Source of the DNA: Microbacteriaceae bacterium 3FA27C10
GTDB lineage: Bacteria > Actinomycetota > Actinomycetes > Actinomycetales > Microbacteriaceae
Reading direction: 5' to 3'
DNA: 64,000 nucleotides
Assembly (NCBI GenBank): GCA_005502775.1
Contig: SCNI01000003.1
Span: 1 to 64,000 of the forward strand
The position numbers and the translations under genes are program-made. Under the pieces are notes generated by a model that searched no databases, was not told the origin of the DNA, and saw only the letters and a program-made list of their open reading frames with translations. Below are positions 9,791 through 23,192 of this stretch, in pieces (positions within the stretch are counted from its first letter, which is position 1; the number at the start of each line of letters is the position of its first letter).

Positions 9791-10702
9791 TTGGCCCCAT
9801 ATGGTGAGACGCCCGAGACCGGGCGGAACCACGAAGACCCGAAGACACCCGAAAGCCCCTCACAGCCTCTGACCCGCCGTGAGTTGCGCACCCGAGAGGG
9901 TGCACCCGGTGCCGAGCTCGAGCTCGCCGCGCCGCCGGTTCCCGCCCGTCGTGCTCCGAGCATCCGGATGCCCCGGCTCCCTCGACTGAAGCGCCCGACC
10001 AAGAAGGGCGCCGTCACCGTCGTGGTGATGACCTTCGCGGCCGGCCTGATCGCCACCATGGCCCTTCCCGCCTACGCCTTCGGCGGTGGCGGCAGCTTCG
10101 ACCAGGGTGTGGCCACCTCGGGCCCGCTGAGCGGCGCACAGACCCTGCAGGTGCCGGCCGACGCCTCCGCCGCACTCGCGGTCAGCCGCGACAACTACAC
10201 GGCTCCCACCACCGAGCAGCTCGCCGCCTCGCGTGAAGCCGCCGCGGCCGCCGTGGCCGCCACCGAAGCCGCGAACAATGCCGCGGCCGCCGCCGCGACC
10301 GCTGCGGCCTCGGGTGCCACCGCCAACAGCGCCTTCACCGTGAACCCGCCCTCGGGCTCCTACAGCGGTGCCGCGATCATCGCCTTCGCGCAGCAGTTCG
10401 TGGGCGTCGTGCCCTACGGCAGCGGGGCGAGCCCCGACACGAGCTTCGGCTGCGACGGGCTCACCCAGTACGTCTTCGGGGCCTTCGGCATCTATCTGCC
10501 GCGCACCGTCAGCAACCAGGCGGCCATGGGCATCCCGATCTCCCCGGCGGATGCGCAGGCCGGCGACCTGATGATCTACCCGATCGGCCACGTGGGCATC
10601 TACGACGGCGCCGGCGGCATGATCGACTCGCCCGACTGGGGCCGCTACGTGGAGCACCGCCCGGTCTGGGGCAGCTACTACTTCGTGCGGATCGTCGCCT
10701 AG
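9791..10702 (+). CDS. NlpC/P60-family secreted cell-wall hydrolase
   Basis: Probable D,L-endopeptidase that cuts peptidoglycan stem peptides outside the cell. It has a long charged cytoplasmic N-terminus, one membrane or signal segment (AVTVVVMTFAAGLIATMALP), an Ala-rich helical linker, and a C-terminal NlpC/P60 domain with the catalytic Cys (FGCDGLTQYVF) and His (GHVGIYDG). The TTG at 9791 is chosen because GGAGGA (9778-9783) lies 7 bases upstream; in-frame GTG 9773 and TTG 9785 are placed worse. It is followed by a clear terminator and preceded by a structured leader. Confidence 0.88.
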   Translation: MAPYGETPETGRNHEDPKTPESPSQPLTRRELRTREGAPGAELELAAPPVPARRAPSIRMPRLPRLKRPTKKGAVTVVVMTFAAGLIATMALPAYAFGGGGSFDQGVATSGPLSGAQTLQVPADASAALAVSRDNYTAPTTEQLAASREAAAAAVAATEAANNAAAAAATAAASGATANSAFTVNPPSGSYSGAAIIAFAQQFVGVVPYGSGASPDTSFGCDGLTQYVFGAFGIYLPRTVSNQAAMGIPISPADAQAGDLMIYPIGHVGIYDGAGGMIDSPDWGRYVEHRPVWGSYYFVRIVA

Positions 10703-10736
10703 GGCGTGTAAACACTTCGTTACCGACACATGAATC

Positions 10737-10766
10737 GGCGTGCCACGAATATGTGGCACGCCTTTT
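10737..10766 (+). terminator. Intrinsic terminator after NlpC/P60 gene
   Basis: A perfect 10-bp stem (GGCGTGCCAC / GTGGCACGCC) with a 6-base loop, followed by TTTT, 35 bases after the stop codon. Confidence 0.85.
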
Positions 10767-10773
10767 CTGTCGT

Positions 10774-10946
10774 ACCCTGTAGCTCTGATCGTCCTCGAGA
10801 TCTGGAGAGCCTGATGACACAGGGTAGGAGCTTCCGCACCACGGAACGTCTCCTGCTGCTCGTGCGCAGGCACACGAGTGGACTGAGTCAGAGCCAGATA
10901 ACTGGTTCTGTGAGCAAGGCGCTGTCATTGTGACGGCGCCTTTTTT
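10774..10946 (+). ncRNA. Candidate structured non-coding RNA with its own terminator
   Basis: About 173 bases between two intrinsic terminators, with successive helices. ACCCTGT (10774-10780) pairs with ACAGGGT (10819-10825) and encloses GCTCT/AGAGC and GATC/GATC. GGAG-TTCCG pairs with CGGAA-CTCC (10827-10852). CTCGTG pairs with CACGAG (about 10859-10878). CAGAGCCAG pairs with CTGGTTCTG across an ATAA loop (10889-10910). A terminator hairpin GGCGCTGTC/GACGGCGCC (10918-10940) with TTTTTT ends it. No convincing ORF is seen. It resembles no RNA family known to me. It could be an independent small RNA or an attenuator leader of the HNH gene 87 bases downstream. The 5' end is uncertain. Confidence 0.55.
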
Positions 10947-11032
10947 GTTGCCCGCTCGTCTCCCGGCCCCGTCGTCGGTGTGTGAAACGTCGAATACCTG
11001 GAAGCCGTCCAGGTCTCTTCGAAAGGGAGAGC

Positions 11033-11530
11033 ATGCGAACACTGGTCCTCAACGCAGGGTATGAACCGCTCGGCGTCGTCTCGTTCAAGCGGGCGCTCGT
11101 TCTGGTGATGAACGAGAAGGCTCGCGTGCTCGCGAGCGACGACGACCACCCGGTCTTCGGCATCGGGGGCGCCTACGAGCGCCCGGCCGTGATCCTGCTC
11201 ACCCGCTACGTGCGGGTGCCCATGAACCGGATGATGCCGGTGTCGCGGCGCGGCGTGCTCCGGCGCGACGGCCAGCGCTGCGGCTACTGCGGCGCATCCG
11301 CCACCACCATCGACCACGTCCAGCCGCGCTCGCGCGGCGGCAAGGACACCTGGGAGAACCTCGTGGCCTGCTGCCTGCGCTGCAACAACGTGAAGGGCGA
11401 CCGCACGCCCGCCGAGATGGGCTGGTCGCTGCGTTTCGCGCCGCGGATGCCGCATCAGGCGGGGTGGACGATCAAGGGCGCCGAGCGCGCCGAGCCGCAG
11501 TGGGAGATGTTCCTGGCCGACGCGGCCTAG
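11033..11530 (+). CDS. HNH endonuclease, chromosomal housekeeping type
   Basis: A 165-residue protein starting MRTLVLNAGYEPLGVVSFK, after a good AAAGGGA ribosome-binding site. The C-terminal half is an HNH domain with a zinc CxxC pair (RCGYCG), the catalytic TIDHVQPRSRGG segment, the Asn/His region (TWENLVACC) and a second CxxC (CCLRCNN). This compact family is present as a single copy in many actinobacteria; its role is not established and could be in repair or recombination. The structured RNA candidate ends 87 bases before the start. Confidence 0.9.
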   Translation: MRTLVLNAGYEPLGVVSFKRALVLVMNEKARVLASDDDHPVFGIGGAYERPAVILLTRYVRVPMNRMMPVSRRGVLRRDGQRCGYCGASATTIDHVQPRSRGGKDTWENLVACCLRCNNVKGDRTPAEMGWSLRFAPRMPHQAGWTIKGAERAEPQWEMFLADAA

Positions 11531-15507: not shown

Positions 15508-16853
15508 TTGGCGGCGAGATCGTTCTCGTAGAAGTCCTGCGTCGCCTTCAGGAAGTCCGCCGGGGTGATCTTGCTGGTGAGAAGGAGCTGCTCGTTGGGC
15601 TGCAGCGAGCCCTGGTAGATACCCGCGGTCGAGTTCGCCATGAAGTCGGTGAAGCCGTCGTCGGCGCCCACCTGGGCGGAGAGCTCGAGAGCCTTAGCGA
15701 TCAGGCTGCCCTGTTCGACGGTGGGCAGGGACTGCGCCGGGTCGCCGCCGGGGGAGGCGCCGGTGACGTCGACGACGATCTGGCGGGCCTTGTCGTTCGT
15801 CGCGATCCAGTTCAGGAAGAACGCGGTGGCGTCGGCGTTCTTCGCCTTCGCGGGGATGGCGAAGGTGTTGCCGGTGCCCATGGCGACGTAGCTTCCGCCC
15901 GCGGTCACGGGCGGCATCAGGAAGAACTGGGCGTTGCCCGTGCCGAGGCCCTTGTCGACGTTCGCCGCATCCCAGTTGCCGTCCCACATGAACAGTCCCT
16001 GGCCGGAGGTGAAGTTGGAGACCATCGTCGTGTAGTTGATCGCGTTGACGTCCGACGGGAGGTACCCCTTCTGGGCCCACTCCTGGAAGGTCGTGGCCCC
16101 CTGGAGCGCGGCGTCGGTCTGGATCGTCGCGCCGGGCTTGTTGAACATCCAGTCGACGAGCGGCTGCTTGTCGCCGTACTGGTTGATGAGCGCCTGCAGC
16201 ACGAAGGTGCCCACGCCGTCCTGCATGCCGGTCTGGATGGGCAGGACGCCCGCGTCCTTCGCCTTCTGCAGGTCGGCCTCGAGCTCGGCCAGGGTGTCGG
16301 GGACCTTGGTGATGCCGACCTGGTCGGCCAGCTTCTGGTTCATGTAGATTCCCGTGACGCTGTAGCCGATGCCGAACTGCCACAGCGAGCCGTCGCCGCG
16401 CACGCCGCTGTCATCCATCCGCGCACCGGCGAGCTGGCCCGCGGGGAACTTGTCCCAGCCGTAGGCGTCGAAGTAGGGGTCGAGGTTGGTGAGCAGCCCG
16501 TCCTTCACCGTCGTGCCGAGGGTCGACAGGCGGATGAGGTCGGGCGCATCGTCGCTGGCGAGCAGGCGCGGCGAGTTGGCCAGGAGGTTCTGGAAGCTGT
16601 CGCGCTTGATGTCGAATTTCACGTTCGGGTACTGCTTGGTGAATCCGTCGGCGAGATCGGAGGTCACAGGGAACCCGGTCTCGTCCTGGATCGTGATGGT
16701 GATGTCGCCGCTCGGCGCGGCGGTGTCCACGGTGCCGCTCGCCTGCGTGGCGGGGGCGGACGATCCGGGTGCGCAGGCGGCGAGACCGAGCAGCAGAGCT
16801 GCCGCGGTGGCTGTAGCGGCGACGGCGCGCCGCCGGGTGAATGTCAATGCCAT
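15504..16853 (-). CDS. Extracellular sugar-binding lipoprotein of ABC importer
   Basis: Solute-binding lipoprotein of 449 residues. It has a basic N-terminus (RRR), a hydrophobic signal and a lipobox ending LLGLAAC, with the modified Cys at residue 27. The mature part has the two-lobed MalE-like pattern. The ATG at 16853 has AAGGAG upstream. It is the first gene of the five-gene operon and is divergent from the LacI regulator; the palindrome at 16907-16918 lies over its promoter region. Confidence 0.92.
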   Translation of the reverse strand: MALTFTRRRAVAATATAAALLLGLAACAPGSSAPATQASGTVDTAAPSGDITITIQDETGFPVTSDLADGFTKQYPNVKFDIKRDSFQNLLANSPRLLASDDAPDLIRLSTLGTTVKDGLLTNLDPYFDAYGWDKFPAGQLAGARMDDSGVRGDGSLWQFGIGYSVTGIYMNQKLADQVGITKVPDTLAELEADLQKAKDAGVLPIQTGMQDGVGTFVLQALINQYGDKQPLVDWMFNKPGATIQTDAALQGATTFQEWAQKGYLPSDVNAINYTTMVSNFTSGQGLFMWDGNWDAANVDKGLGTGNAQFFLMPPVTAGGSYVAMGTGNTFAIPAKAKNADATAFFLNWIATNDKARQIVVDVTGASPGGDPAQSLPTVEQGSLIAKALELSAQVGADDGFTDFMANSTAGIYQGSLQPNEQLLLTSKITPADFLKATQDFYENDLAAK

Positions 16854-16906
16854 GGTGACTCCTTCGTCAGGACGGGTAAGGCGATTGCAGGGCCGGATCT
16901 CGATGC

Positions 16907-16918
16907 TAAATGCATTTA
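16907..16918. promoter_or_regulatory. LacI-type operator palindrome
   Basis: TAAATGCATTTA, a perfect 12-bp palindrome. It is located between the divergent binding-protein gene (54 bases away) and lacI-type gene (88 bases away). The position suits repression of the transport operon and perhaps autoregulation. Confidence 0.65.
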
Positions 16919-17005
16919 CCACCGGTTGCGGATATACTTACTCGCTCAGGCTGACATGTCAAGTAGGCGACGGTGCCGGGTGTCGACGGGGACGAAAGGG
17001 GGCTC

Positions 17006-18109
17006 ATGTCCGCAAAGCGCACGACGTTGGCGGATGTCGCCCGGCTGGCCGGGCTGTCGCCGACGGCGGCGTCGCTCATCCTCAACGGAAAGCCCGACAC
17101 CCGGTTCTCTGCCGAAGCGCACGCCCGGGTGCATGCAGCTGCCGCCGAGCTGGGCTACCGCCCGAACATCGGGGCCCGCGCACTGCGCACAGACCGCACT
17201 CTGTCGATCGCGTTCATCTCGGACGTCGTGGCCACGACCCGTTTCGCCAGCGGCCTGATTCAGGGGGCGCTGGAGGAGGCCGAGCGTGCCGGCCACGTGG
17301 TGCTCGTGATGGAGACGCGGGGCGAACCCGCCCGGGAAGCCGAGGCGATCGAGGCCGTGCTCGACCGCCAGGTCGACGGCATCATCTTCGGCACCATGCG
17401 CGCCCGGGAGCTGTTCGTGCCCGACCTCCCGGACTCCACCAGGGTCGTCATGCTCAACGCGACGAACCCCCGCTACGGCGTCTCGGTGCTCCCGGACGAG
17501 GAGGCAGGGGGACGGGCTGCGGTCGACCTGCTCGCCGCGGCCGGGCACTCGGAGGGCATCGCCCTGATCGGCCAGAACGACGAGGTCGAGCGCGACCTCT
17601 TCCGTTCCGCCACGGTCGCTCGGCGCATCCATGGCCTGCGCTCCGAGCTGGCGGAGCTCGGGTTGAGCCTCGTGGCGGAGGAGTCGTGCTGGGACTGGGA
17701 GCCCCACCACGGCTACGAGCTGACGGCGGCGCTGCTCGACCGCCGCTCCGATGTGCGGGCGCTGCTGTGCATGAACGACCGGCTCGCGTTCGGCGCCTAT
17801 CAGGCCTGTGCGGAGCGCGGAATCGCGGTGGGGCGGGATGTCTCGATCGTCTCGTTCGACGACGACGAACTCGCCTCCTATCTCCGCCCGGGACTGACCA
17901 CGATCGGGCTCCCGCACGTCGCGATGGGCCGCGAGGCCGTGCGCCTTCTGCTCTCCGACGCCGACGCAGGGGAGCGTCTGATCCCGATGCCGGTGGTCGA
18001 ACGGAACTCGATCGCCGCGACCGGTTCGGAGAGTGCCCTCGCGTGGCGTGCTCGGCAGAGACTGGAGGGGCTCCGGCATGTCGGCGGAGAGCGACCGGGC
18101 GCGCTGTGA
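17006..18109 (+). CDS. LacI-family transcriptional regulator
   Basis: Sugar-responsive repressor of 367 residues. It has an N-terminal LacI helix-turn-helix and hinge (TTLADVARLAGLSPTAAS, then LGYRPNIGARALR) and a periplasmic-binding-protein-like effector domain with the typical FDDDELASYLRPGLTTI region. The ATG at 17006 has AAAGGGGG upstream. It is divergent from the sugar ABC operon and almost certainly controls it through the palindrome in between. The effector is probably the imported sugar or its breakdown product. Confidence 0.93.
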   Translation: MSAKRTTLADVARLAGLSPTAASLILNGKPDTRFSAEAHARVHAAAAELGYRPNIGARALRTDRTLSIAFISDVVATTRFASGLIQGALEEAERAGHVVLVMETRGEPAREAEAIEAVLDRQVDGIIFGTMRARELFVPDLPDSTRVVMLNATNPRYGVSVLPDEEAGGRAAVDLLAAAGHSEGIALIGQNDEVERDLFRSATVARRIHGLRSELAELGLSLVAEESCWDWEPHHGYELTAALLDRRSDVRALLCMNDRLAFGAYQACAERGIAVGRDVSIVSFDDDELASYLRPGLTTIGLPHVAMGREAVRLLLSDADAGERLIPMPVVERNSIAATGSESALAWRARQRLEGLRHVGGERPGAL

Positions 18110-18205
18110 CGCGTGCGGCGGTCTCCCGTCCGGACTGGGTGTTGCGCCTCGCTCCGCAGATGCAGAGCGGGCGGATGCCGGTGAGCCGGTAAACTTGGCG
18201 GGTCA

Positions 18206-18277
18206 GCCTCTGTAGCTCAATGGAAGAGCAGTTCCGTCCTAAGGAAAGGGTTGGGGGTTCGAGTCCCTCCAGGGGCA
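18206..18277 (+). tRNA. tRNA-Arg (CCT anticodon)
   Basis: A full cloverleaf of 72 bases: acceptor GCCTCTG/CAGGGGC, D stem GCTC/GAGC, anticodon loop GTCCTAA (anticodon CCT), T stem with TTCGAGT loop, discriminator A. CCA is not encoded. The outermost pair of the anticodon stem is G-A. The last 24 bases plus one beyond are duplicated at 20045-20069, which marks this gene as an integration site. Confidence 0.93.
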
Positions 18278-18278
18278 C
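18254..18278 (+). repeat. Left attachment repeat (attL-like, in tRNA-Arg)
   Basis: The 25-bp T-arm/acceptor segment starting GGGGTTCGAGTCCC and ending GGGGCAC, identical to 20045-20069. Confidence 0.85.
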
Positions 18279-18394
18279 CGTTTTGCGAGGCCTCAGATCC
18301 CTGTAATCACGCGGATCGGGGGCCTTTCACCTTCTCTAGGTGACGGTGTTTGCCCACACTTTTCCAGCGTCGCGCCTGAGGGGTCGCCAAACCT

Positions 18395-18416
18395 GTACCA
18401 TTATTGGTACGGTAAT
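18395..18416. promoter_or_regulatory. Overlapping inverted repeats upstream of abiEi
   Basis: GTACCA-TTAT-TGGTAC (18395-18410) is a perfect inverted repeat. A second pair, CCATTA and TAATGG, overlaps it. They lie about 20-40 bases before the abiEi start. AbiEi antitoxins are known to bind inverted repeats in their own promoters, so this is the probable autoregulatory operator. Confidence 0.65.
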
Positions 18417-18433
18417 GGCGGAGAGGTGAGCAG

Positions 18434-18967
18434 ATGGGCTATCGCCAGGATCTGTGGGAGATCGCAGCATCGCACAACGGCGTGGTGACCCTCGCCGAGG
18501 CCGAGGATGCAGGTGTGCCCGCCGTCGAGGTGCGGAAGCTCGCTGCTCGAGGCGCGCTCCACGCTTACGGGCAGGGCGTCTATGCGCACCGCGACGTGCC
18601 GAAGACGCCGTTCGCTCAGCCGACGATCGCCGTCGCTCTAGCGGGAGATCGAGCATTCTTGCATCGCGAATCTGTTCTCGATCTTGTCGGCCTCGGCCAG
18701 TTCAACCCACCGAAAGTACGCGTGGGGACTCGCCGTCGGGTGAGGCGCACTCTGCCGGACTGGATGGAGTTGGAGAACCGACCTGACTTGCTCGACGAGG
18801 ATCTCACTCGCTACGAGGGCATCGCGGCGACAACCGTTCGGCGGGCGCTTGAGGACATGCGAGACCGGATGCCACCTGACCGGTGGGAAGCTCTGATTGA
18901 CGCGGGGCTCAGGAGGGAGCTGGTCGGCGAGCGTGAGGCCTCTCTCTGGAAGGCCGCTTCGGCATGA
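18434..18967 (+). CDS. abiEi: AbiEi antitoxin
   Basis: Antitoxin and autorepressor of a type IV toxin-antitoxin pair, 177 residues. The N-terminal winged helix (about 1-70, GVVTLAEAEDAGVPAVEVRK, then GQGVYAHRDVP) is typical of AbiEi. The C-terminal domain contains ATTVRRALEDM. GAGGTGAG precedes the ATG. It overlaps the toxin gene by four bases. The pair forms the only cargo of the tRNA-Arg islet. AbiE pairs elsewhere abort phage infection or stabilise mobile DNA. Confidence 0.88.
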   Translation: MGYRQDLWEIAASHNGVVTLAEAEDAGVPAVEVRKLAARGALHAYGQGVYAHRDVPKTPFAQPTIAVALAGDRAFLHRESVLDLVGLGQFNPPKVRVGTRRRVRRTLPDWMELENRPDLLDEDLTRYEGIAATTVRRALEDMRDRMPPDRWEALIDAGLRRELVGEREASLWKAASA

Positions 18968-19896
18968 ATGGGGTCACACCGCCGCTGAACATCACGCAGC
19001 TCAACGACCGGCTCACGCAGGTCGCGACGGAGTTGGGCATCCCCGTCGCGCGAGCACGGGTGATGCTGTGCACGCTGATCGTGTCGCAGATGCTTCCTGA
19101 TGCCGTCGCGGTTAAGGGCGGGATGGGTGTGAAGTTGCGACTGGGGGAGCGGGGCACGCGGGCGACGTCCGATCTCGATGTCTCCACACGCGTCCGCGGC
19201 GAAGAGTTCGAGGAATCATTCCGCGCGCGTCTGGCTGAGGGGTGGGGAAGTGTTCCGGCCTCGAAGGGCGAGCTGCGGCGCAACCCGGATGCACCGGATC
19301 GTGTTGCGTTCACCGCGACCGTGCGTGCAGTGAGGCTCCATGATCCGGGGCTGGCCCGACCGGACTATGTGATGCATCCATATCGGGTGTCGATCGCCTT
19401 CCTTGGCAGTGCGTGGGGCGCGCTCGATGTGGAGGTTTCCGACCCTGAGGTCGATCCGTACCCGCACGCGCGGATGGAGATCGACGGAGGACTGGTGCAA
19501 TTCGGTGCCTTCTTTGGATTCGGTGACCTGCAGCCAGTCGAACTGGTCGAGCTGGAGTACCAGATCGCGCAGAAGATCCATGCCGTCACCGATCCTGCCT
19601 ACGTGCGAGCGCATGACCTGGTCGACCTTCAACTGCTCTGGAACGCTGGGCCCGATCTGCCGAGTCTGAACATCCTTTGCGCGCGCACATTCGATTGGCG
19701 ACGACAGCAGGCTTGGCCGCCGCTTCCGGTGCGCCCCATGGGCGGGTGGGAGCTTGCTTACTCCGACGCGCGCCGGGAGACCGAGGTTGACGGTCGGACG
19801 CCGGTGTTGCCGGACGTCGCTACTGCGCGCGAGTGGCTGAGCCGGATCATCCGCGTCATCGCGTCCTTGACTGACGGCCTCCCTGAAAGCACTTGA
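18964..19896 (+). CDS. abiEii: AbiEii nucleotidyltransferase-like toxin
   Basis: Toxin of the AbiE pair, 310 residues, of the nucleotidyltransferase AbiEii/AbiGii family. Near residue 60 it has the KGGMGVKLRLG segment followed by TSDLDVSTR, corresponding to the G(S/G)...DxD active site. Further conserved-looking pieces are EYQIAQKIHAV and HDLVDLQLL. Some family members modify tRNA 3' ends; whether this one does is not visible. The start overlaps the antitoxin stop (ATGA), which favours coupled translation. Its codon use is slightly less GC-rich than in flanking genes. Confidence 0.88.
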   Translation: MNGVTPPLNITQLNDRLTQVATELGIPVARARVMLCTLIVSQMLPDAVAVKGGMGVKLRLGERGTRATSDLDVSTRVRGEEFEESFRARLAEGWGSVPASKGELRRNPDAPDRVAFTATVRAVRLHDPGLARPDYVMHPYRVSIAFLGSAWGALDVEVSDPEVDPYPHARMEIDGGLVQFGAFFGFGDLQPVELVELEYQIAQKIHAVTDPAYVRAHDLVDLQLLWNAGPDLPSLNILCARTFDWRRQQAWPPLPVRPMGGWELAYSDARRETEVDGRTPVLPDVATAREWLSRIIRVIASLTDGLPEST

Positions 19897-20044
19897 TCTG
19901 GCGCTCAACAATCCGGGACTCGGTGCCCACATTCTGCCCACGCTCCAGCGCCAAAGCGCGTGATTCAACGCCATCTGTATGATTGAAGATGCCCGGAAAT
20001 ATGCGGGACTTGCGACTTCGCGCCGGCATTCTTGACCGGAGACA

Positions 20045-20069
20045 GGGGTTCGAGTCCCTCCAGGGGCAC
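20045..20069 (+). repeat. Right attachment repeat (attR-like)
   Basis: An exact copy of the 25 bases at 18254-18278 (3' end of tRNA-Arg), with no other tRNA parts around it. It marks the right end of the islet. Confidence 0.85.
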
Positions 20070-20132
20070 AACTGGTGCGCGCGTCGTGGGGTGTGCCTCT
20101 GCGAGGGTCGGGGATGTCCGGCCCTCCCGAGG

Positions 20133-21275
20133 TTGGGACAGGTTCTGGAGACGACGAACACGATCACGCGCGCGACGAGTCACGCGACGGATGGCATCCG
20201 AGGTGGCTCCGCCCCGCGGGAGCGGGCGCTGTGGCTCGACGTGGCCCGGGGCGCGTGCGTGATCGCGGTCGTGATGCTGCACGTGCGCATCTTCGTCTAC
20301 GACCCGCTCACGCCGCCGACCGCGGGGACCCGGGCTTGGCGGGAATTCACGGAGTTCTTCGGGCCGTTCCGGCTGCCACTGCTGTTCACCATCTCGGGGC
20401 TGCTGGTCTCGGAGCGGGTGCGCAACGGATGGGGCGACCGCCGCAACGCACTGAGGGTCGCCTCGTCGTACTGGATCTACGTCGTGTGGCTGTGCGTGTT
20501 CGGCGCCATGTCTGCGGCGGTCGCCGTGTCTACGATGCCGTTCCAGATGGCGTCGATGCACGACTTCCTGCGGCAGTTCGCTCTGCCCGACACCACGCTC
20601 TGGTTCGTGTTCGCCCTCGCGCTCTACGTCGTGGTGCTCACCTCGCTGCAGCGTCTCCCGTGGTTCGTGGTGCTCGGCCTCTTCGCCGCGCTGGCGGTGG
20701 CGTCGGGGCTCGTGCCGGCATCCCACGCCGAGGAGCAGTGGCTGCACATCATCTACTTCTCGGTGTTCTTCGCCGCCGGGGTGTACGTGCCGAAGCTGTT
20801 CGTCTGGTTCTCGCGCGGGCGCATCCCGGTGAAGCTGCTGGGCACGCTCGGCGCGTTCGTGGCGTTCCAGCTGCTCTGGCAGCTGACCGAGCAGGGCGAG
20901 GTCTTCGAGACCTCGGCCCGCTTGCTGCGGGACACGGCGGCGGTGGCCCTGGCGATCGTGGTCTGCGCCATCGTGAGCCGCATCCCGGCCGTCGCGCAGC
21001 TGCTGGCGAGGGTGGGCCGGCGCACGCTGCCGATCTACATCCTGCAGCTTCCGGTGATCTGGGCGCTCTGCCTGCTGCCGGTGGTCCCGGCGCTGTTCGA
21101 GATCCCGGTGGTGCGCTATCTCGGGCCCGTGTTCGGCACGACGGTCGTGGTCGGTGTCTCGCTCCTGGTGTTCCGGCTGATGGAGCGCACCCACCTCCGC
21201 TACATGTTCCGGATGCCGCGCCGGTTCAGTGACCGCATCGTGCGCGGGCGGGCGACTGGCATCCTGGAGCGATGA
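20133..21275 (+). CDS. Acyltransferase family 3 membrane protein
   Basis: Integral membrane acyltransferase of the OafA/family 3 type, about 380 residues with around ten hydrophobic segments. The N-terminal family signature is seen as RALWLDVARGACVIAVVMLH. Such enzymes acylate cell-surface glycans or small molecules. The start is uncertain: TTG 20133 is used, GTG 20091 is in frame, and neither has a well-spaced ribosome-binding site. The gene begins just after the right end of the AbiE islet, so its original promoter may have been displaced. It overlaps the following hydrolase gene by four bases. Confidence 0.85.
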   Translation: MGQVLETTNTITRATSHATDGIRGGSAPRERALWLDVARGACVIAVVMLHVRIFVYDPLTPPTAGTRAWREFTEFFGPFRLPLLFTISGLLVSERVRNGWGDRRNALRVASSYWIYVVWLCVFGAMSAAVAVSTMPFQMASMHDFLRQFALPDTTLWFVFALALYVVVLTSLQRLPWFVVLGLFAALAVASGLVPASHAEEQWLHIIYFSVFFAAGVYVPKLFVWFSRGRIPVKLLGTLGAFVAFQLLWQLTEQGEVFETSARLLRDTAAVALAIVVCAIVSRIPAVAQLLARVGRRTLPIYILQLPVIWALCLLPVVPALFEIPVVRYLGPVFGTTVVVGVSLLVFRLMERTHLRYMFRMPRRFSDRIVRGRATGILER

Positions 21276-22376: not shown

Positions 22377-23192
22377 CTAGAGCCTCCGAAATGCCTCGCC
22401 TGGAGGATGAAGCGTGGGTTCCGCCAGTCCTAGTGCGCGATAGTAAGCCCCAGTAGATCTCACAGCTTGGCCCTCTGTCAGGTAGCCGGTCATTGCTCCG
22501 GGAATGACCGGCGAAACGTAGATGAATCGAGAGGGCAGCTCTCGCTGGACCAGGTCGAGCGTCTGGGCGGCCTTGGCCGTCGTGAACTTACTTCCGCCTG
22601 CAAGCGCCACTTGAAAGAAGAGTGCTTGGATTCCAAATGAAACCAGCGCGAAGTAGCTGGTGTGTGAGGGGCGTGAGAGGTTCTGCGCAGAAGTTGACGG
22701 TTCGATCGATGCCCAACTGCAGCGCCCTGCTGGGAAAGCATATTCGTCGCTGACCGCGAGATGAGCGAATACTGTCTCCGGACTCATTTGCGTGCGAAAG
22801 GCCTGATTGAAAAGGATGCGCGGGGCTCTACCATCAGCCGGTTCTTGCAAGGTACGCAAGAGAGCCCTAGTTGCCATCCAAAGCGCCAAGCGAGGTCGTC
22901 GGGCGATAGGCACCGCAATCGTCTTGGCCAACGCGAGGTCAACGATTAGGTCCTCCACCTCTTCTTCCAAATCGTTGAGCCACCCATTGTTGCAGGCCTT
23001 GCATACCTGGTTGACCGTCAGCATGAATGGCGAGAGCGGAATGCTCTGACGCGGCTGTCGCACGCCTCCCACGGTTCGATCAAGCAATATGCGATCAAAC
23101 GTTGGAATCAGCCCGTTGAATTTATCCCGGAGAATGTGCTCTTTCGATCTTTCGCCGGGCAGCTCACAGAACACACACACGAATTCAGCCAA
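22377..23192 (-). CDS. HNH-like zinc protein, possible nuclease
   Basis: A 271-residue protein that I do not recognise in full. The N-terminus has the arrangement CVFCELPGERSKEHIL, then VCKACNNGWLNDLE about 45 residues later. Two CxxC pairs, a central EH and a CNN-W segment are the layout of HNH-type endonucleases. The rest has no familiar motif. Base composition is clearly less GC-rich than in neighbouring genes, so recent transfer is likely. It overlaps the end of the hepT-like gene by eight bases on the same strand. A defence-type nuclease is plausible but not shown. Confidence 0.7.
   Translation of the reverse strand: MAEFVCVFCELPGERSKEHILRDKFNGLIPTFDRILLDRTVGGVRQPRQSIPLSPFMLTVNQVCKACNNGWLNDLEEEVEDLIVDLALAKTIAVPIARRPRLALWMATRALLRTLQEPADGRAPRILFNQAFRTQMSPETVFAHLAVSDEYAFPAGRCSWASIEPSTSAQNLSRPSHTSYFALVSFGIQALFFQVALAGGSKFTTAKAAQTLDLVQRELPSRFIYVSPVIPGAMTGYLTEGQAVRSTGAYYRALGLAEPTLHPPGEAFRRL

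Follow-up and report, generated by a model that had tools for sequence, protein, structure and literature searches.

A minimal AbiE islet at a tRNA-Arg gene of Herbiconiux, probably an integrase-less member of a tRNA-targeting island family of Microbacteriaceae

We analysed a stretch of 64,000 nucleotides from Microbacteriaceae bacterium 3FA27C10 (the window: positions 1 to 64,000 of contig SCNI01000003.1, assembly GCA_005502775.1), the genus of which is Herbiconiux. Directly behind a tRNA-Arg(CCT) gene the window holds a 1.8-kb islet with a single AbiE toxin-antitoxin pair as its cargo. This islet is probably a non-autonomous, integrase-less and minimal member, similar to the cis-mobilisable elements (CIMEs), of a family of Microbacteriaceae islands that target tRNA genes and often carry defence genes. 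We read it as an integrase-less derivative because an AbiE pair precedes the integrase of this family in Herbiconiux moechotypicola, and because the ends typical of the family recur in the islet.

The tRNA-Arg(CCT) gene forming the integration site was located at 18206..18279 by ARAGORN (59 bits against the Rfam tRNA model); it lies on the plus strand, as do all the islet features below for which a strand is given. The 25 bp preceding its final base, GGGGTTCGAGTCCCTCCAGGGGCAC, make up the attL core (18254..18278) and are repeated exactly as the attR core at 20045..20069. This was the longest direct repeat reported for 17500-21000, with a start-to-start distance of 1791 bp. Allowing up to 3 mismatches, the 21-bp core has three copies in the 4.0-Mb draft genome, the third being on another contig with 3 mismatches. 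Between the two cores, the open reading frames (ORFs), Pfam and PADLOC revealed abiEi (18434..18967, 177 aa; Pfam AbiEi_4, E 2.5e-07; PADLOC AbiEi, 1.1e-51), a predicted antitoxin and regulator, and abiEii (18964..19896, 310 aa; Pfam AbiEii, E 2e-11; PADLOC AbiEii, 1e-85), a predicted MenT3-like nucleotidyltransferase toxin. They are the sole recognised genes there, and they overlap at ATGA. The motif TGCCCAC occurs inside the islet at 18351, 19924 and 19935 and at no other position. On the left it belongs to a single arm-type unit, TTTGCCCAC, at 18349..18357, and on the right to two units 11 bp apart, TGCCCACATTCTGCCCAC, at 19924..19941. The islet is poorer in GC (63.8%) than the window as a whole (70.6%), and 0.5% of the flank windows of equal length in the 64 kb are as low. 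The original prediction, made from the sequence alone, had described this repeat, an AbiE pair as the only content, the three motifs as arm-type sites of a tyrosine integrase and the lack of an integrase gene; its positions were correct, and our searches bear out all four points.

Judged by chance alone, the TGCCCAC motifs are only mildly surprising. The expectation for TTTGCCCAC is 0.11 per window and it was present in 10 of 100 shuffles, while the double arm motif has one exact match in the window and four with up to 2 mismatches, against 0.77 expected. The evidential weight of the motifs comes instead from their fixed distances to the core in relatives. In Herbiconiux islands, the distance from the tRNA to TTTGCCCAC is 70-71 bp, and 81-82 bp for a second unit where there is one; in the right-hand pair, 106-108 bp separate the end of the second unit from the right core. 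We then scanned 398 genomes of the family Microbacteriaceae, which represent 85 genera. A strict right-end pattern was found in 17 genomes (9 genera) with none for the reversed control, a looser right-end pattern in 35 (20 genera; control 0), and a looser left-end pattern in 58 (31 genera; control 1 genome). Paired ends were found at tRNA genes for Arg(CCT), Lys(CTT), Leu(TAA and CAA), Ser(CGA, TGA and GCT) and Thr(TGT), and the Arg and Lys cores have GGGTTCRAGTCCCT in common. The fixed geometry in relatives, the controlled scans and the paired ends at several tRNA genes together show that the arm sites are real and define a family. Some of its members are tandem or composite: on contig C6 of G351 (L069-L070) two 17-kb units, neither of which has a family or Pfam integrase, stand in tandem at tRNA-Leu(TAA) with three cores in a row, G317 has two right ends in a row, and in G004 an integrase fragment stands in front of an intact integrase. 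A further small element, of 2.2 kb, was seen at tRNA-Leu(CAA) of G300 (contig C5, L080, ~16784-19080); it has identical 21-bp cores and paired arms, and its sole recognised gene is the C-terminal part of a family integrase.

The tRNA-Arg(CCT) gene was present in all 16 Herbiconiux genomes examined. In eight of these (the window's own genome, G000, together with G004, G006, G007, G011, G012, G014 and G015) it is directly followed by an arm-type left end. G008 and G009 have a different integrase beside it, and in G001, G002, G003, G005, G010 and G013 a search of the 8-13 kb retrieved downstream of the tRNA, allowing up to 4 mismatches, gave no second core. In G001, homology of 78% to the acyltransferase gene that neighbours the islet on the right begins 116 bp downstream of the tRNA, which together with the lack of a second core identifies an empty site. 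Core-to-core sizes were 1.8 kb in the window, 6.3 kb in G007, 8.4 kb in G011, 10.0 kb in G015, 11.6 kb in G004 and 16.4 kb in G012; the islands of H. moechotypicola (G006) and G014 run into contig ends. The AbiE type of the window is far from fixed at this site, being found there, among the 16 genomes, in the window and H. moechotypicola only. Sister islands at tRNA-Arg and tRNA-Lys genes (read at loci L035, L036, L037, L043, L045 and L177) have varied cargo. PADLOC identified a DRT3 reverse transcriptase (G004) and Avs3 (G015), and Pfam identified SMODS with S_4TM, resembling a cyclic oligonucleotide-based antiphage signalling system (CBASS; G011), SIR2 (G002), and HEPN with a second AbiE type (G007); several other scanned proteins of these islands had no defence match. 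By its predicted function, the AbiE pair of the islet fits this pattern of defence-type cargo. The comparison of related tRNA-Arg loci suggested in the original prediction has thus supplied both an empty site and other cargo between similar ends.

The integrase of the family is of the tyrosine type, ~375 aa long and encoded near the left end, and Pfam detects arm-binding, central and catalytic domains in the G002 copy. In H. moechotypicola, an AbiE pair of the window's type (~90%) lies between attL and an intact copy of this integrase. Using a profile built from five Herbiconiux copies, we examined 22 complete elements, that is, elements with both ends on one contig. Nine have a full-length integrase ORF (G002, G004, G011, G321, G110a, G110b, G171, G049 and G190), seven a damaged one (G007, G012, G007:C4, G040, G300, G096 and the Thr element of G053) and six none that is detectable (the window, H. 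ginsengi (G005), G015, G154 and both units of G351), so that 13 of the 22 are without an intact integrase. The 22 leave out G185 (two right ends, no matching left end), a 36-kb element of G053, G317 (first unit ~38 kb, two right ends), G204, G127, G152, G010, G268 and G321:C59 (no left end paired with them in the retrieved DNA) and all other left-only or right-only pattern matches. Pfam searches of the five genomes to which the six integrase-less elements belong (the window's own, G005, G015, G154 and G351) gave no PF00589 match in these elements, and none on the window contig. In the islet itself, neither the profile nor tblastn at E 1e-4 gave a match to the family integrase, and a translated comparison for a remnant gave nothing convincing, the best being 22 residues (E 0.12) over the arm sites. 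As no remnant lies inside the islet, we infer the loss of its integrase from the relatives.

The host draft genome, which is in 115 contigs, has seven PF00589 matches, all off the window contig. The sole close relative of the family integrase is on C104 (66001-85900, L083; ~10642-11446), beside a tRNA-Ser(GCT) gene; ~100 of its N-terminal residues are missing and it is split between two frames. For the remaining PF00589 proteins, the matches to the family integrase are at 25-56% and confined to short or weak stretches. A helper acting in trans from within the host genome is not supported on these grounds, together with the occurrence of only three core copies (up to 3 mismatches). Looking for a tyrosine integrase in the draft genome, as had been proposed, turned up one close family relative, the damaged C104 copy, and none that is both close and intact.

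Comparison of the two ends of the islet indicated different relatives for each. The left flank (18280..18365) is 86-91% identical over 85-86 bp to the left ends of G040, G011, G006 and G015, all at tRNA-Arg, 73-75% identical over 75-87 bp to the tRNA-Arg left ends of G012 and G004, and with G002 and H. ginsengi, whose ends are of the tRNA-Lys type, the identity is 77-80% over 53-55 bp; the flank thus resembles a subset of the tRNA-Arg-type islands. The alignment with H. moechotypicola begins at the tRNA, includes the abiEii stop and breaks off at 19902; its single 11-bp gap corresponds to the second left arm unit, which the window lacks. In contrast, the right flank (19922..20044) shows 78% identity with the right ends of G002 (tRNA-Lys) and G007:C4 (tRNA-Leu) and 70% with the H. 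ginsengi one; the values for seven right ends of the tRNA-Arg type are 59-62%, and an eighth (G154) gives 45%. Those seven are 75-85% identical to one another, and the table from which these values come is without the tRNA-Arg right end of G014. A genus-wide search with the right-end stretch returned, besides itself, G007:C4, G002, H. ginsengi and, weakly, H. moechotypicola (E 0.002). With its left end nearest to tRNA-Arg islands and its right end nearest to tRNA-Lys/Leu islands, the islet has hybrid ends.

A second AbiE-only islet, 2.06 kb from core to core, was found at tRNA-Lys(CTT) of H. ginsengi. Its far core has decayed (19 of 21 bases), its arm units are paired on the left and reduced to one on the right, and its other ORFs of at least 120 aa overlap the AbiE pair on the opposite strand. 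The stretch that begins at the abiEii stop and enters the right end can be aligned between the window and H. ginsengi across the junction (19897..19923 in the window); H. moechotypicola differs there. G002, a full tRNA-Lys element with an intact integrase and the same type of right end as the islet, also differs there and has no AbiE match. Since the junction aligns in the window and H. ginsengi, the fusion of abiE to a right end of the tRNA-Lys/Leu type would most simply predate both islets. The gap between the arms and abiEi is ~345 bp in H. ginsengi and ~65 bp in the window, and its sequence differs; nothing convincing was found on translated comparison of the 345-bp gap with the integrase. 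Given the differing left ends and gaps, the integrase may have been lost once or twice. A palindrome of ~31 bp occurs both in the H. ginsengi gap before abiEi (L084 5267-5299) and in G002, ahead of its right end (L177 15756-15798). Within the AbiE genes, the first six 150-bp windows of abiEi are 88-93% identical to H. moechotypicola against 73-84% to H. ginsengi, and from ~19184 on the informative sites are split 59 to 56 between these two. The fit of a two-segment split to the informative sites was equalled in only 4 of 2000 shuffles, which is suggestive of a crossover inside abiE, although the signal is not clean.

Based on these observations, a course of events can be proposed. In full members of the family, as the comparison shows, the integrase is encoded near the left end, the cores consist of the 3' end of the tRNA, and TGCCCAC units occur in pairs spaced by 11 bp, ~70-82 bp downstream of the tRNA on the left and ~106-119 bp short of the core on the right. 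Of this outfit the islet retains the two cores and three arm units (one on the left, two on the right) together with the AbiE pair, and it has no integrase or other recognised cargo. Since its two ends are of different lineages, it would have arisen from two islands: an AbiE islet of the Lys/Leu lineage would have met a tRNA-Arg island in one cell, the two may have been joined either by tandem insertion at the GGGTTCRAGTCCCT core that they have in common or by an exchange within abiE, with subsequent deletion of the integrase and the other cargo. Such a scenario is plausible because tandem and composite structures do occur in G351, G317 and G004. The islet is most likely immobile on its own, and it may have been retained since AbiE would act as a defence or an addiction module; from its homology to MenT3, AbiEii would be expected to disable tRNAs as that relative does. 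With both ends still recognisable, its excision by a related integrase that enters the cell would in principle be feasible.

All four Herbiconiux elements with an intact integrase (G002, G004, G006 and G011) have four exact TGCCCAC units, and an arm unit is lost or altered in five of the seven without one (the window, H. ginsengi, G007, G012 and G015). G006 and G014 stand outside the 22 complete elements but are among the 11 compared here; elements outside Herbiconiux were kept out of the comparison as they had been found by means of the arm patterns. The contrast (5/7 against 0/4) has a Fisher p of 0.045 one-sided and 0.061 two-sided, and leans towards relaxed selection on the ends after loss of the integrase. 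The original prediction had also offered a decayed island kept by toxin addiction. Decay fits better than a new class of element, given the integrase that follows AbiE in H. moechotypicola, the 13 of 22 elements without an intact integrase and the arm erosion, but the islet itself holds no integrase pseudogene or other remnant.

Several points weigh against a decayed derivative of such islands. Remnants of the integrase are seen only in relatives. The erosion comparison is post hoc and comprises 11 elements only; without G006, the right end of which was itself found by the arm pattern, the one-sided p becomes 0.083. G014 and G007:C4 have damaged integrases and keep all four arm units. The islet core is a perfect 25-bp match and its two right arm units are intact, so its erosion is slight. 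Core identity does not follow the state of the integrase, being 21/21 in G007, G012 and G014 (damaged) against 18/21 in G006 and 17/21 in G011 (intact). That one abiEii-attR junction recurs at two different tRNA genes might reflect the movement of a unit already devoid of integrase. Finally, a strict CIME needs a parent among the integrative and conjugative or integrative and mobilisable elements (ICEs/IMEs), and the 17 sister-island proteins that were scanned, the only ones, belonged to defence-type, integrase and other families, with no relaxase or conjugation family among them.

The last but one of these points leads to the idea that AbiE-only units are hitchhikers, moved among tRNA genes by the integrases of incoming full islands much as miniature inverted-repeat transposable elements (MITEs) or integrase-less integron cassettes are moved. 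This we consider unlikely. It is favoured by the two AbiE-only islets at an Arg and a Lys tRNA gene with the same abiEii-to-attR junction, by the GGGTTCRAGTCCCT common to the Arg and Lys cores together with a window core that is still perfect, by the recognisable ends kept in the 6 of 22 complete elements without a detectable family integrase, and by the tRNA-Lys element of G002, in which an intact integrase is combined with the same type of right end. However, the left ends of the two islets come from different lineages, so that one unit has not simply moved; each islet is one arm unit short of four; a close intact family integrase was not found in the host draft genome; and the stretch between arms and abiEi (~345 against ~65 bp) allows for separate integrase losses. 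We also give a rather low probability to the specific course in which a tRNA-Arg island like that of H. moechotypicola recombined homologously with an excised circle of an AbiE islet having the other right end, by an exchange inside abiE, with the integrase and cargo lost later. The closeness to H. moechotypicola in abiEi followed by an even split after ~19184, the two-segment fit and the different nearest relatives of the two ends all agree with it, but in the right half the islet, H. moechotypicola and H. ginsengi are nearly equidistant, and the pattern may only reflect a divergent abiEi in H. ginsengi. This course is a route to an integrase-less derivative rather than a contradiction of it.

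Two further readings carry far less weight. That the islet represents a self-sufficient new class of tiny element, moved by a function of AbiE, might be supposed from the fact that only AbiE genes were recognised between its ends; it is very improbable, because the ends belong to a tyrosine integrase system the integrase of which has an arm-binding domain, AbiEii is a protein of the nucleotidyltransferase family, AbiE loci of other genera are without exact arm patterns in the flanks retrieved (see below), and integrase-bearing relatives have the same conserved arm and core geometry. The probability that a tRNA end was duplicated by chance or locally beside native AbiE genes, with no trace of a mobile element, is practically negligible. 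The presence of two genes only and of no mobility gene would agree with it, but it is rejected by the exact 25-bp repeat, the empty site in G001, the same-ended islands in 8 of 16 Herbiconiux genomes and the low GC content.

The islet has the bicistronic layout of AbiE type IV toxin-antitoxin systems, with a winged helix-turn-helix AbiEi followed by a nucleotidyltransferase AbiEii. In such systems the antitoxin neutralises the toxicity without forming a complex with the toxin. By sequence, the abiEii product matches the MenT3 (Rv1045) structures of the PDB (E 6e-16). Its motifs VKGG...DLD, QIAQKIHAV and HDLVD align with MenT3 and, when read by eye against PMC3985639, correspond to the conserved nucleotidyltransferase motifs I-IV. 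MenT toxins have been reported to modify tRNA ends. An inverted repeat, GTACCA-TTAT-TGGTAC (18395..18410), lies in the predicted abiE promoter region and could be an operator of AbiEi; it is identical in H. moechotypicola and similar in H. ginsengi. The ratios of nonsynonymous to synonymous substitution (dN/dS) against H. moechotypicola are 0.19 for abiEi and 0.15 for abiEii, which indicates purifying selection and therefore that the AbiE cargo has been kept.

Scanning the named genomes for AbiEii gave 16 loci, including those of H. moechotypicola (90%) and H. ginsengi (85%); 14 of the 16, outside Herbiconiux, had no exact arm-pattern match within the retrieved flanks. In six of the 16 loci (L084, L086, L089, L090, L093 and L095), members of this AbiE clade lie at most ~0.5 kb from a tRNA 3' end (Lys, Gln three times, Pro and Arg). 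Four of them, from other genera (L086, L089, L090 and L093), were considered as islets and not counted, because no second copy of the tRNA end of at least 11 bp was found in the retrieved loci and no family integrase is nearby. No AbiEii match was found in plasmid and phage records at E 1e-5.

The original prediction had further raised the possibility of a new class of very small elements. This is not supported, because CIMEs, which keep attL and attR and have lost the genes for integration and transfer, have already been described (PMC5704250). Like them, the islet has kept both attachment sites at a tRNA 3' end and has lost the integration gene, and it has tandem and decayed relatives in G351, G317 and G004; it differs in being of 1.8 kb, in carrying a single toxin-antitoxin pair and in having ends from two lineages. 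From its predicted features, the islet is a CIME-like variant, novel in its tiny size, its toxin-antitoxin-only cargo and its hybrid ends. Resemblance was also seen to the integrase-only defence islands of E. coli described in PMC10121019: like full members of the family, these combine an integrase with defence cargo at hotspots that include tRNA genes. The islet differs in having lost the integrase as well, in its bacteria and integrase, and in the conserved arm sites that define its family. According to the same paper, AbiEii is found at only three E. coli hotspots, and the transfer route of integrase-only islands is unclear. With the clusters of attC sites lacking integrases (CALINs) and MITE-type hitchhikers treated in PMC11389934, the islet has in common that recombination ends are kept and the enzyme is absent; those, however, use an integron integrase or a transposase. 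The predicted AbiE pair resembles the type IV system of PMC3985639 in its overlapping abiEi-abiEii and its AbiEi_4 and AbiEii domains; AbiE is reported there to stabilise plasmids, and a HipAB system is reported in PMC8978831 to stabilise a composite island in Shewanella.

Phage satellites, such as those resembling phage-inducible chromosomal islands (PICIs), have replication, regulation or packaging genes besides an integrase. The islet was rejected as a member of this group since only abiEi and abiEii are recognised between its cores, and likewise as an autonomous island of its own family, since with core and arm units at both ends (one left unit missing) it has no tyrosine integrase of its own. 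No paper combining Herbiconiux and integrase was found among the open-licence papers searched, and of those on Microbacteriaceae integrases, genomic islands and tRNA, none dealt with this island family as judged by title or start of the abstract.

Outside the islet, the chromosomal neighbour on the right is part of an acyltransferase gene (20256..21275, plus strand; PF01757), in a frame that is open from 19983. Farther on, a protein of 271 aa is encoded on the minus strand (22377-23192), for which neither Pfam nor PADLOC gave a match at E 0.001.

How defence genes move without an adjacent mobility gene is an open question, raised for E. coli hotspots in PMC10121019. The islet shows that islands at tRNA genes can shrink to a minimum and yet keep their ends. 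It is a clean case: the cargo is limited to two genes, the ends are defined, a close relative still bears the integrase, the site is also known in its empty state, and a different tRNA gene harbours a second AbiE-only islet. The locus allows a direct test of whether such elements are units mobile in trans or fossils. For the family Microbacteriaceae, paired TGCCCAC arms next to a tRNA core provide a signature by which islands can be delimited. It is conceivable, and we offer it as a speculation of low probability, that Microbacteriaceae share a pool of defence cassettes with interchangeable arm-and-core ends, in which integrase-less units, among them those with AbiE only, would be moved between tRNA genes by the integrases of other islands and would swap left and right ends. 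If true, such units would be a tyrosine-integrase counterpart of integrase-less cassettes.

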